Shown here piece after piece: positions 16,201 through 20,384 of a stretch of 64,000 bases of DNA (the first letter of the stretch is position 1; each line of letters opens with the position of its first letter). The notes below the pieces were generated by a model. The model was given only the letters and a program-made list of their open reading frames with translations. It was not told the DNA's origin and did no database searches. The position numbers and the translations under genes are program-made. Source of the DNA: Nitrospirota bacterium (lineage in GTDB: Bacteria > Nitrospirota > Nitrospiria > SBBL01 > JAADHI01); assembly GCA_029261195.1 (NCBI GenBank), contig JAJDBU010000059.1, forward strand, positions 83,299-147,298. The letters are read 5' to 3'.

Positions 16201-16946
16201 CCGCCATTGGACTGCATGAACAACACGCGGCTGTCTCCGAGGGCCGCCGAAATCCGTTCAACATAACGACGGAGGATGGGGGATAGGTAGGCATCGACGA
16301 CGGTGGTATCGCCCCGCCCGATGAGTTTTATCAATGGCGTCGTTTCATGACTTGTTGAAATCTGGGTGAAACCGATTTCCCGTGCCAACGCTGCAACACC
16401 TTGTTCATGCGCCGGATAGCGGTAGGCATGAAGACAGACGATGGCAATGGCACGAATGCCTGAATTAAAAACCGACTGGAGCTTTGGCCTGAGTGAATCC
16501 AGCACAAGCGGTTTCAGGACTTCACCGCTTGCGCTCACCCGTTCATCGATTTCAATGACTTGTTCGTAGAGCAATTCCGGCAGGATGATTTCTCTGTCAA
16601 AGAGACGGGGTCGCGTCTGATTTCCAATTCGGAGGGCGTCTCTGAAACCCTCTGTAATGGCCAAAAGGGTTCGTTCACCTTTTCTCTCCAAAAGGGCATT
16701 TGTGGCAACGGTCGTGCCCATGCGAACGGTAAGGATAACGCCGGGAGGAATGGCCTCGCCTGCCTTGATTTCAATCAGATCCCGAATGCCCTGAATGGCG
16801 GCGTCGTTATATAGCTCCGGGTTTTCGGAAAGGAGCTTGTGACTGAGGAGCTTGCCGTTTGGATGACGCGCGATGAGATCGGTAAAGGTCCCGCCCCGGT
16901 CAATCCAGAATTCCCAGTCTTTGTTTTTTGTAGAAGTGCGCTTCAT
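13281..16946 (-). CDS. oplAH: Fused 5-oxoprolinase (HyuA-HyuB type)
   Basis: 1221 aa, the usual length of the fused ATP-dependent 5-oxoprolinase that opens 5-oxo-L-proline to glutamate. The N-terminal HyuA-like half has the actin-fold phosphate loops DRGGTFTDL (16-24) and DMGGTSTDV. The HyuB-like half starts near residue 740 (DPVMLEVFNNLFMSIAEQMG) and ends in the family tail VIETPGGGGFGG. Hydantoinases share the architecture, so the exact substrate is an inference. Its ATG overlaps the stop of the MNT nucleotidyltransferase gene by the ATGA pattern, placing this metabolic gene at the end of the Roco/toxin-antitoxin operon. A decayed relative of its 3' end lies at 20901-20981. Confidence 0.92.
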   Translation of the reverse strand: MKRTSTKNKDWEFWIDRGGTFTDLIARHPNGKLLSHKLLSENPELYNDAAIQGIRDLIEIKAGEAIPPGVILTVRMGTTVATNALLERKGERTLLAITEGFRDALRIGNQTRPRLFDREIILPELLYEQVIEIDERVSASGEVLKPLVLDSLRPKLQSVFNSGIRAIAIVCLHAYRYPAHEQGVAALAREIGFTQISTSHETTPLIKLIGRGDTTVVDAYLSPILRRYVERISAALGDSRVLFMQSNGGLTAAEQFCGKDAILSGPAGGVVGAALGAKEAGFDQIITFDMGGTSTDVAHYAGEYERTSETQVAGIQMRAPMMKIHTVAAGGGSICSFDGSRFRVGPDSAGALPGPACYRRGGPLTITDCHLMLGRLQADFFPRLFGPKQDQSLDADIVREAFASLSERIKSEGLFDYSLIEIAEGFLNIATQNMANAIKKISVQQGHDVTSYTLCAFGGAGGQLACKVADLLGMKTVFIHRFAGLLSAYGIGQADQRLLRSISIEQALHEDLMPRLSETFSELAQEGRAEMAQQGIDPDRITFTKKIALKAQGTDTALSVDFASIPEMSRAFEMRYHKRFGFTMPSLALIVETLSLEVIGQVEVLGQVAAIEQTKVLRPSLSDGPLTSDEEQAQSFQRPQRIVKAYFDGKYSHTPVYKRALLRPSHPVIGPAIICDPNSTTIVEADWSAQATQEGGLILERIRPLPKHYAIGTACDPVMLEVFNNLFMSIAEQMGHTLRLTASSVNIKERRDFSCALFDQEGGLVANAPHMPVHLGSMSESVRAVIKNNQGKIRPGDVYALNDPYNGGTHLPDVTVITPVFDKNQILFFIGSRGHHADIGGATPGSMPSNSRNLEEEGVLLKNFKLVNGGNFDENGIRSLLTQAHHPARNPDQNIADLRAQIAANQKGVHELKKMVDTFGLETVRAYMQHVQANAEEAVRRVIGVLKNGNFSYALDNGSVIKVSITIDNEKRGALIDFSGTSPQQTNNFNAPKSVTRAAVLYVFRCLVDDDIPLNEGCLKPIEIRIPEGSMLDPLAPAAVVAGNVETSQVITDALFGALGVMAAAQGTMNNLTFGNADYQYYETLCGGTGAGPDFNGASAVHSHMTNSRLTDPEVLELRFPIVLNRFEIRENSGGAGQYKGGDGVRREIEFLEAMTLSLLSNRREVPPFGLKGGESGAVGQHWIERPDGSMVPLWGADKIEVDQGDIFVIETPGGGGFGGE

Positions 16947-17263
16947 GAACTATTTTGAATTCCAGCTTCATAAAAAATAATGCCGACGCGCTTAATATGG
17001 TCGATGAGATCGGTATTGTCGATGTGTTTAAAAATCGAGAGATCGAAGGTATAGGGCAACAGCAGGTCGTCCAGGTCGTTGTCGATTTTGTGGAGCATGG
17101 AAAGGGTTAATCCTTCCCCCTCAAAAGTCAGGTCAATGTCCGAGCCGTTTTTATAGTTGCCCTTGGCACGAGAGCCGTAGAGGGTGACTTTTTCCACTTC
17201 CGGATAGCGTGAAAAAACAGAAATGATTTGTTCGATGGTCTGTTCTTTCAGGCCGAATTTCAT
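16943..17263 (-). CDS. MNT-type nucleotidyltransferase (antitoxin of a HEPN/MNT pair)
   Basis: 106 aa minimal nucleotidyltransferase. The motif GSRAKGNYKNGSDIDL (residues 30-45) gives the GS dyad and the DXD metal site (D42, D44). In characterised HEPN/MNT modules the MNT protein neutralises the HEPN RNase by adding AMP near its active site. It overlaps the HEPN gene upstream and oplAH downstream, both by four bases, so all three are translationally coupled. The order HEPN first, MNT second is common. Function as antitoxin is by family. Confidence 0.88.
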   Translation of the reverse strand: MKFGLKEQTIEQIISVFSRYPEVEKVTLYGSRAKGNYKNGSDIDLTFEGEGLTLSMLHKIDNDLDDLLLPYTFDLSIFKHIDNTDLIDHIKRVGIIFYEAGIQNSS

Positions 17264-18321: not shown

Positions 18322-20384
18322 TTCGCTGAACCTATGTTTTGGAATGAGCGCTGATGCATATGCCTGAGTTCAGACCGAACGACGGTTAATAAGTCCCTCT
18401 TTGCCCGAGCTTCACCCCGCACACGAATGTTAATGGACTCAACGCCTGTTTCGGGGTCGTCAAGAACTGTCACCTCCGCCCGTGTCTTTCCCTCTTCAAA
18501 AACAGCACCGCGTTTCCAAATCAAAGGCTCGTCCGCATTTTGCGCCACTTGTTCGCTCATTCTCACAATCAAGCGTGCTATGATGCCCTTGGGCATAAAA
18601 GGGTAGGCAAAGCGAAAATGAAGGTTATGACTGTCTTCCCATTCATAAGCCGGTTCTTTAGAGGGAAGCAGTTGCGGGGCGATGTAGGTGGATACTTCGT
18701 GGTTCTTGAGTTCGTAGCAGATTTCGAAGCTGTCTTTTTTAATCAGGCTGATTAACTTGCAGCACTCGTCGTGTTTGTAGCCTTTTTGCTTCCAGAGGTC
18801 GAAGATCCAATCTTGCGTAAACCGGCCTTTATTTTCTTCCAGGGTTTTATCTTCCAATACGGCATAAACCGCTTTAACAAGCCACTTGGGATCGACGATG
18901 ACAAAGTCGTGCAAATTAGGGTCATCCTTAAAATGCACGATGAGACCGAGGGCATCCAGATATCCGCTGATAAAGAGTGCCGATTGCTCGTCTGCAACTT
19001 TATTTTCATTGCAGATCGCAACAAAGTCTTTGTAGCAAATGTGGTGTTCTGCTTCTCTGGCTGCCAGTGCCTCCCGTATCGGGACCCATTGTTTCGGGAT
19101 TTCATCCCCGACATGTTTCAGTTTGGAGCTGAATGTTTGCACCTGCTTTGTCAGTTTGAGAATACGTTCTTTATCTTCTCCCAGATCGACGCTGAATTGA
19201 TGGATCTCAAGCTCCGGGTAGAGCTTCTTGTAATAGTTGAGGTCGAAATTTGTGACCGATTTATAATTACGTTCGTTGAGTACAACCAGAACAGGGCTGC
19301 CTTTTCCGAAAAGATGAATGGCTTTAAACCAGTAGTCGAAATCGGCATCCTGTCGTCGGTCGTCGGCGACGAGGATGTAGAGCGATCGGTCTCGCAGAAA
19401 AAACTGGTGGGTCATGTATTGAATTTCCTGCCCGCCGAAATCCCAGAGATGGGCGGTGAATGTAATCTCGATATCCTCGGTGAAAGGGAAAGACCAATTA
19501 TTTTCCACTTCTATGCCGAGGGTGGAGTCCTCCCCCTTTTCGGGTAGTTGATAATCGGGATTAATCAGTTTTTTCTTTAATGTCGTTTTGCCTGCACCCG
19601 CTTCACCGACGATGAGAATACGTGCTTCATAAAGCGGGATGGTGCCCTGTAAGCTTGCCTGACGGAAGTAATCTTCAATGGCAAGAATACCTTTTTCAAT
19701 GACCTCCTGCGGAGGAGATGTAAAGGGGATATTGCTCAAATCGAGGGCAGTGAGATTTGTGAGCTTAGTGATGCTCTCCGGCAGCGTGCTCAGTTGGTTA
19801 CTGCTCAAATTGAGGGAAGTGAGATTTGTGAGTTTAGTGATGCTCTCCGGCAGCGTGCTCAGTTGGTTACTGTACAAATAGAGGGAAGAGAGATTTGTGA
19901 GCTTTGTAATGCTCTCCGGCAGCGTTTGCAATAAGTTATTGCTGAGGTCAAGCCATTCAATATGTTGAAATGCCCCTTGGCTGGGAGAGAACCAATGCTC
20001 AAGCCTTTTGAGACCACTTCTTCTAAAACGAATCCCGATCACATTTTGTGGTGTGACCGTCTTTTCCACTTCGACAAACTGAAACACTTGGTCCGAATCA
20101 AGGATCAAGCCGGGTCGGTCCGGGATTTCATCAAGGGGGTTGAGAGCGATATTAATCTGTTTTAATTTTTTAAGTCGCTTAAGCTCCAGCGGCAAGGCCC
20201 GCAAAAGATTATTACTGAGGTCGAGTGACTTTAATTCACTCAGTTCAAAAACCGCTTCAGGAATGGCGAAAAGAATATTCCGGCTATAAAGATCGCCTTT
20301 GTCGCCCCGCAAAGACAAATGTGTTGATTGATCTTTTTTTGCTTTTTTAATCGCCATCTGAAAATCGTGTGGTACCGGATACAT
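18318..20384 (-). CDS. Roco protein: leucine-rich repeats, ROC GTPase and COR domain
   Basis: 688 aa. Leucine-rich repeats occupy residues 20-90 and 140-220, the second block with nearly identical units (LPESITKLTNL). The Ras-of-complex GTPase follows: P-loop GEAGAGKTT (260-268), switch/G3 WDFGGQE (314-320) and a G4-like LNERN (369-373). The rest is the COR dimerisation domain, with the typical block YLDALGLIVHF. Bacterial Roco proteins are cytoplasmic GTPases regulated by dimerisation; LRRs presumably sense a ligand. The natural role is unknown for nearly all of them. Here the gene leads an operon with a Cys/coiled-coil protein, a HEPN/MNT pair and 5-oxoprolinase. Confidence 0.92.
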   Translation of the reverse strand: MYPVPHDFQMAIKKAKKDQSTHLSLRGDKGDLYSRNILFAIPEAVFELSELKSLDLSNNLLRALPLELKRLKKLKQINIALNPLDEIPDRPGLILDSDQVFQFVEVEKTVTPQNVIGIRFRRSGLKRLEHWFSPSQGAFQHIEWLDLSNNLLQTLPESITKLTNLSSLYLYSNQLSTLPESITKLTNLTSLNLSSNQLSTLPESITKLTNLTALDLSNIPFTSPPQEVIEKGILAIEDYFRQASLQGTIPLYEARILIVGEAGAGKTTLKKKLINPDYQLPEKGEDSTLGIEVENNWSFPFTEDIEITFTAHLWDFGGQEIQYMTHQFFLRDRSLYILVADDRRQDADFDYWFKAIHLFGKGSPVLVVLNERNYKSVTNFDLNYYKKLYPELEIHQFSVDLGEDKERILKLTKQVQTFSSKLKHVGDEIPKQWVPIREALAAREAEHHICYKDFVAICNENKVADEQSALFISGYLDALGLIVHFKDDPNLHDFVIVDPKWLVKAVYAVLEDKTLEENKGRFTQDWIFDLWKQKGYKHDECCKLISLIKKDSFEICYELKNHEVSTYIAPQLLPSKEPAYEWEDSHNLHFRFAYPFMPKGIIARLIVRMSEQVAQNADEPLIWKRGAVFEEGKTRAEVTVLDDPETGVESINIRVRGEARAKRDLLTVVRSELRHMHQRSFQNIGSAN
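19743..19949 (-). repeat. Three tandem 69-bp units encoding leucine-rich repeats
   Basis: Three in-frame copies of 69 bases (23 residues each) begin at 19743, 19812 and 19881. The first two differ at only a few positions; the third is more diverged. This fits recent copy-number change by slipped pairing or unequal crossing over within the LRR region of the Roco gene. Confidence 0.9.

Follow-up and report, generated by a model that had tools for sequence, protein, structure and literature searches.

Gene organization of the Roco and HEPN-MNT locus

We analysed a 64,000-nucleotide stretch of DNA from a Nitrospirota bacterium (assembly GCA_029261195.1, contig JAJDBU010000059.1), hereafter the window, where a gene for a Roco GTPase, a bacterial relative of the Parkinson's disease protein LRRK2, stood next to a pair of HEPN and MNT genes. 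A first-pass annotation had listed five minus-strand genes at this locus, with overlapping or abutting junctions, and this part of it held: all five open reading frames (ORFs) were open as it had placed them, and re-measurement gave four-base overlaps between the Roco and middle ORFs, between HEPN and MNT and between MNT and oplAH, while the middle ORF directly abutted HEPN. The features were as follows:

18318-20384, minus strand: Roco GTPase ORF, 688 amino acids, with leucine-rich repeats (LRRs), Roc, COR-A (residues 430-573) and COR-B up to profile position 86 of 145; P-loop at 260-267 and WDFGGQ at 314-319
18318-18345, minus strand: region within COR-B where the frame is broken by a net -1 (approximate location, from alignment to relatives)
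17680-18321, minus strand: Cys/coiled-coil ORF, the C-terminus of the Roco protein, 213 amino acids, TTG start; COR-B end and disordered linker, with a helical domain at the effector position; Cys pairs at residues 4/9 and 36/39, in the COR-B end
17260-17679, minus strand: HEPN protein of the HI0074 type (PF08780), 139 amino acids, RX4HXY at R95/H100/Y102; predicted RNase toxin
16943-17263, minus strand: MNT nucleotidyltransferase, 106 amino acids, GSX10DXD at 30-44; predicted antitoxin AMPylating HEPN
13281-16946, minus strand: oplAH-like hydantoinase/5-oxoprolinase, 1221 amino acids; likely passenger

Pfam matches over the cut-off were found for Roco (LRR, Roc, COR-A and COR-B), HEPN (PF08780), MNT (Polbeta/NTP_transf_2) and oplAH (hydantoinase A/B). 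Since their best E-values ranged from 4e-16 (MNT) to 6e-209 (oplAH), these four were not chance ORFs. The GC content was 0.43-0.46 from the Roco to the MNT ORF, 0.53 in oplAH and 0.50 in the window. Promoter and terminator scans gave nothing better than the shuffle level. PADLOC returned weak matches for MNT (candidate family PDC-S09, 2e-7) and for the middle ORF (AriA and LeoBC, 1e-3 to 6e-3), and none for Roco or HEPN.

The middle ORF is a severed Roco C-terminus

The 213-amino-acid ORF had originally been described as a separate Cys/coiled-coil protein that transmits a signal from Roco. We rejected this interpretation because several lines of evidence agreed that the ORF, judged by its sequence, belongs to the Roco gene as a fragment and is no gene of its own. 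Of the 145 positions of the COR-B profile, the Roco ORF matched 2-86 and the tail ORF, in the other frame, 96-144; the second half was weak alone (E 0.19) and stood in the right order. In BLAST comparisons, the tail ORF fell on the fused C-termini of single-chain Rocos of 926-1150 amino acids. It aligned to residues 692-944 of P0006 (946 amino acids), 791-996 of P0005, 928-1142 of P0007, 710-922 of P0008 and 94-305 of P0122, and P0005, P0006, P0007 and P0122 each matched both window frames one after another. The same order was seen in the Chlorobium tepidum Roco (CtRoco), where positions 337-890 of chain 8r4b matched the Roco ORF and 917-1105 the tail ORF (numbering of the entry, which may be offset from that of PMC11052575). 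Given the split COR-B, the two-frame relatives and the order in 8r4b, we concluded that the reading frame shifts by a net -1 within COR-B, some codons short of the Roco stop, where the two frames share four bases (TTGA). In a structure model of the severed piece, a disordered linker joined the COR-B end to a helical bundle. As a protein query, the tail ORF matched, among candidates of 0.55-1.75 times its length, nothing but a shorter gene call of itself and a fused fragment of 305 amino acids.

Thus, the Roco module is broken, at least in this assembly. Relatives with an intact Roco frame exist. The LRR, Roc and COR-A parts typical of a CtRoco-type protein were all over the Pfam cut-off, and both window ORFs aligned in order to CtRoco (PDB 6hlu, 8r4b-d, 3dpu); unlike CtRoco, however, the window protein was cut inside COR-B, so that a complete COR-B and the C-terminal region did not lie in one open frame.

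According to PMC11052575, CtRoco passes through a GTP-dependent dimer-monomer cycle, its COR-B segment 892-940 is involved in dimerisation and is missing from the GTP-state map, and its last 150 residues are of unknown structure. PMC8195603 predicts that Roco/AP-GTPases are counter-invader systems whose C-terminal effectors vary; in the bacterial proteins, at least 24 domain kinds occupy the effector position and are interpreted as effectors. Like these systems, the window genes combine LRRs, an AP-GTPase and COR with a variable domain at the effector position; in contrast, the window domain is helical and severed from the GTPase, and the immune role is itself only predicted in that source. 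Intact Rocos of the CtRoco-like kind are predicted to be counter-invader switches in which the LRRs would sense, the Roc-COR GTPase would cycle between a dimer and a GTP-bound monomer, and the C-terminal domain would occupy the effector position. The break would take away the dimerisation end of COR-B together with this domain. Based on the role of the CtRoco COR-B end and the literature on the effector position, the 688-amino-acid product was predicted to lack the dimerisation part and the effector. Because of this loss, it would be a tail-less and likely monomeric GTPase, and its gene is probably in early decay.

The HEPN-MNT pair

The adjoining pair had been annotated as proteins of the toxin and antitoxin type, and our results agreed with that assignment. 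HEPN scored 143 bits against PF08780 (cut-off 31.8) and 87.3 bits against TIGR01987 (cut-off 55.8). Its RX4HXY motif read RNETSHTY and was also present in the homologues from the related genomes G001 and G005; the residues R95 and H100 named by the first-pass annotation were in place, as was Y102. In MNT, the GSX10DXD motif was GSRAKGNYKNGSDID at positions 30-44. The sequence features of an HI0074-type pair were present, namely a HEPN over the cut-off, RX4HXY and an adjoining MNT with GSX10DXD, the two genes overlapping by four bases. The best PDB match of HEPN was a Legionella HEPN (2e-38), and that of MNT was the partner of the same protein. With both motifs intact, both families over the cut-off and these Legionella matches, the two genes form an HI0074-type pair that likely works as a type VII toxin-antitoxin system.

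The NCBIfam model for MntA equivalogs (NF047752) gave 32.1 bits for the window MNT, which was not filed as an MntA equivalog because this was below the cut-off of 60. HEPN reached only 13 bits against the HepT-like family PF01934, to which the Shewanella HepT presumably belongs, judging from the family name. PMC7641770 reports that Shewanella MntA adenylylates HepT; this is also a HEPN/MNT pair, whereas the window MNT fell below the MntA cut-off and the window HEPN belonged to PF08780. In the Legionella pair, the RNase is silenced when the tyrosine of the motif is AMPylated (PMC11586414). Both RX4HXY and GSX10DXD were common to the window pair, this type VII system (8xdj, 8xeh, 8xeo) and HI0074 (1jog), but for the window proteins AMPylation and RNase activity are predictions. 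By analogy with the solved relatives, MNT would transfer AMP to Tyr102 of HEPN and thereby silence the RNase centre at R95/H100, and loss of MNT or of ATP would be expected to release the RNase. HEPN had relatives in 121 plasmid records and 4 phage records, all below 60% identity, and the plasmid records contained no DNA resembling the group.

Two probable accessory modules side by side

The first-pass annotation had joined these genes into one immune operon, in which Roco senses, the Cys/coiled-coil protein transmits and HEPN acts as an RNase effector under MNT control. The tight same-strand packing with four-base overlaps spoke for such an arrangement, as did the prediction in PMC8195603 that Roco/AP-GTPases are counter-invader switches, and the HepT-type pairs found near some other Rocos (see below). 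However, the middle ORF was Roco's own tail, and the comparison with other genomes separated the remaining partners. A sister species of the same genus (G001) had a close HEPN/MNT pair (68% and 81% identity), and its genome gave no COR-A match. Conversely, no HEPN, MNT or oplAH was present beside the nearest Roco relative, which was in the Nitrospirota metagenome-assembled genome (MAG) OFTM211 (L010, 83% identity in the best segment). The window alone had an HI0074-type HEPN among 86 scanned sequences (the window included, some of them overlapping), MNT being also matched in L011 and L036, and no HI0074-type pair stood beside another Roco in those sequences or in the further Roco flanks that were read. 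The same pairing was thus not seen in other genomes, and the neighbourhood check proposed in the first-pass annotation found it only in the host genome among those searched. Literature searches, judged largely from their listings, turned up no report of an operon joining Roco to HEPN/MNT; both terms occur in PMC8195603 and PMC7159879. Control of HEPN by Roco was accordingly not borne out, a five-gene Roco-controlled toxin operon was not supported, and we consider the original scheme highly improbable.

We instead favour the reading, with a probability of roughly 0.6, that two separate accessory modules of known kinds lie side by side, a broken Roco and a HEPN-MNT pair, with no Roco-controlled toxin operon. 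What appeared to be a five-gene immune operon then resolves into two known kinds of module, and the case shows how a break in the frame may be mistaken for an additional gene.

Two side observations concerned these relatives. In G001, MNT continued into a Prok-JAB domain within one 255-amino-acid ORF (L127:3792-4559, minus strand) with HEPN just upstream, possibly an insertion beside a JAB gene. At L010, an ORF for an AbiEii-like nucleotidyltransferase (L010:5102-5566, plus strand) lay about 430 bases upstream of the Roco, which was itself in several frames.

Evidence against the two-module reading

Several observations weighed against this reading. The first was that pairs of another kind did occur near Rocos. 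COR-A was matched in 13 of 395 genomes of the host phylum; among the 20 Roco flanks of this phylum that were read, HepT-like pairs were found near two Rocos of one genome (L210 and L213), and outside the phylum near L011 and L036. These four pairs lay within about 2.1 kb of their Rocos, and at L213 a truncated HEPN of the HI0074 type was also present, about 1.4 kb away from the Roco. The HEPN density predicted 0.55 such loci, as against the four observed (P 0.002, a post hoc value without correction). The expectation was derived from 61 genomes, representing 50 of 80 Roco loci and 11 Nitrospirota genomes; since the other 30 Roco loci, scanned without finding HEPN, were outside it, this P value was optimistic. 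The count left out L204, where an MNT fragment lay about 6 kb from the Roco with no HEPN. On the other hand, the four HepT cases had a different HEPN family and another gene order and spacing than the window. We read this as Roco and HEPN/MNT kinds gathering in the same accessory regions, and a looser functional link between them is possible.

Two of these loci had further features. The L011 Roco (615-3686) was followed four bases later by a nucleotide cyclase ORF (3691-4323, plus strand), whose start carried a motif like Roco's own end by eye, and 0.8 kb on by the MNT/HepT pair. The L213 Roco (7208-9394) ended in a TIR domain; its MNT/HepT pair (6492-6785 and 6114-6491, minus strand) shared the strand of the Roco and lay 422 bases downstream of it, with the truncated HEPN (5432-5788, plus strand) beyond the pair.

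The remaining points concerned the break itself. The host genome had a second Roco, 60 kb off on the same contig, and here too a net -1 shift in COR-B had cut off the tail:

L003:5236-7284, minus strand: second Roco of the host genome (G000:C55, at about 161 kb)
L003:4730-5245, minus strand: its severed tail

Both host Rocos were hence cut in the same part of COR-B. The breaks were about 30 alignment columns apart, so that they were near but not identical, and an identical break point was dropped. The relatives of the second Roco had a median length of 859 amino acids among the 119 matches listed, 7 of which were at most 740; the majority of those listed were longer proteins in a single chain. 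In the first set of Roco loci, complete-COR ORFs continued for at least 70 amino acids beyond COR, except at L083 and at L024 and L058, which were at contig ends. Among 240 proteins with COR, a median of 202 amino acids followed it and 15 had fewer than 70; seven of these ended inside COR and eight had a complete COR, two of the eight being the host genome's own and the other six possibly lying at contig ends. One protein, P0236, ended near the second-Roco break and could be a third case. Moreover, comparison with the nearest relative gave a ratio of nonsynonymous to synonymous rates (dN/dS) of 0.04 for core residues 279-535, the core segment after these being saturated, and of 0.09 for the tail, with dS near saturation. 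Both sides looked constrained, and the tail had evolved no faster in the window Roco, a pattern expected of a very recent break and equally of a split gene that still functions.

The frame break could also be an assembly error, the organism then having an intact CtRoco-like gene beside an unrelated HEPN-MNT pair. No second assembly was found and P0001 was on one contig, both sides of the break were free of stop codons, and the relatives with changed core frames, L010 and L015, both came from the OFTM MAG series. In a comparison with 498 ORFs of at least 150 amino acids, taken from 41 stretches that cover part of the sister genome, however, none of 32 orthologues with at least 50% identity was split in the host contig (27 were full length in one frame and 5 were covered less, without a second frame), yet both of the two Rocos were. 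Because of this count, general assembly indels were unlikely and an indel-ridden assembly was rejected; an assembly error at the break itself we regard as unlikely.

Another possibility was that the cell produces core and tail as two distinct chains, through translational coupling at the stop/start overlap or through frameshifting, and that these work jointly or separately. The severing of both host Rocos in the same COR-B part, with overlapping starts (TTG or GTG) in both, would agree with this, as would the low dN/dS on both sides of the break and the L011 cyclase, a separate ORF after its Roco. Nevertheless, the tails were fused in most relatives and the split was not conserved, and the public gene call P0121 started the tail 47 codons later. 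We found no in-frame -1 slippery heptamer by eye, and no stimulatory RNA fold at the break, where the folds were no better than shuffles (z +0.69 and +0.51). Programmed -1 frameshifting was set low on account of the fused tails and these missing signals, and a functional split in general appeared distinctly unlikely. Since the split was not conserved and no recoding signal was seen, a very recent break was likelier than a working two-piece protein. Should the split be functional after all, it would be a natural experiment on the COR-B end and the C-terminal region of bacterial LRRK2 relatives. A bolder version would have the lineage keep two-piece Rocos as separate chains, both paralogues being severed by a net -1 shift in the part of COR-B with which CtRoco dimerises, with both halves under purifying selection and the sensor-switch made apart from its effector tail, and the first sharing a transcript with HEPN-MNT as its lethal arm; this we hold to be very unlikely.

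A further idea, that Roco genes of the host lineage were unusually often broken, was dropped because core frame changes and internal stops in other loci showed that broken Rocos occur elsewhere too. The Roc-COR core had no frame change in 97 of 101 loci, was changed in three (L010 and L222, which are the same gene, and L015) and was partial in one (L027). This count covered the core only, and the second host Roco was thus counted as intact. Stops inside the best match were found in three of the 97 unshifted cores (L071, L078 and L217), and damaged Roco genes are thus no rarity among MAGs.

Genomic setting and other features of the window

The genes trmFO and then xerC (names assigned by eye) followed each other in all seven relatives compared, as in the window, and none of the seven had oplAH, HEPN/MNT or Roco upstream of trmFO within the roughly 7.6 to 12.9 kb that were read. 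The oplAH match of the relatives was on another contig, and in G005 only an oplAH fragment was found. These results fit the earlier suggestion that oplAH is a passenger, which we consider likely. Since the gene order upstream of the trmFO-xerC pair differed between relatives, accessory modules such as those favoured here probably come and go at this site. In the relative G006, oplAH was in two overlapping frames (L131:5586-8042 and 7996-9183, plus strand).

Upstream of Roco and elsewhere in the window, the following features were noted:

20400-20864, minus strand: small lipoprotein-like ORF (lipobox by eye), without a Pfam match over the cut-off, ending 15 bases upstream of Roco
21033-21323 and 21333-21629, plus strand: Gp49-like toxin and HI1420-type helix-turn-helix antidote pair, divergent from the Roco group
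8116-8229, plus strand: thiamine pyrophosphate (TPP) riboswitch, just upstream of an ORF at 8245-10212 that looks like thiC (gene name by eye)

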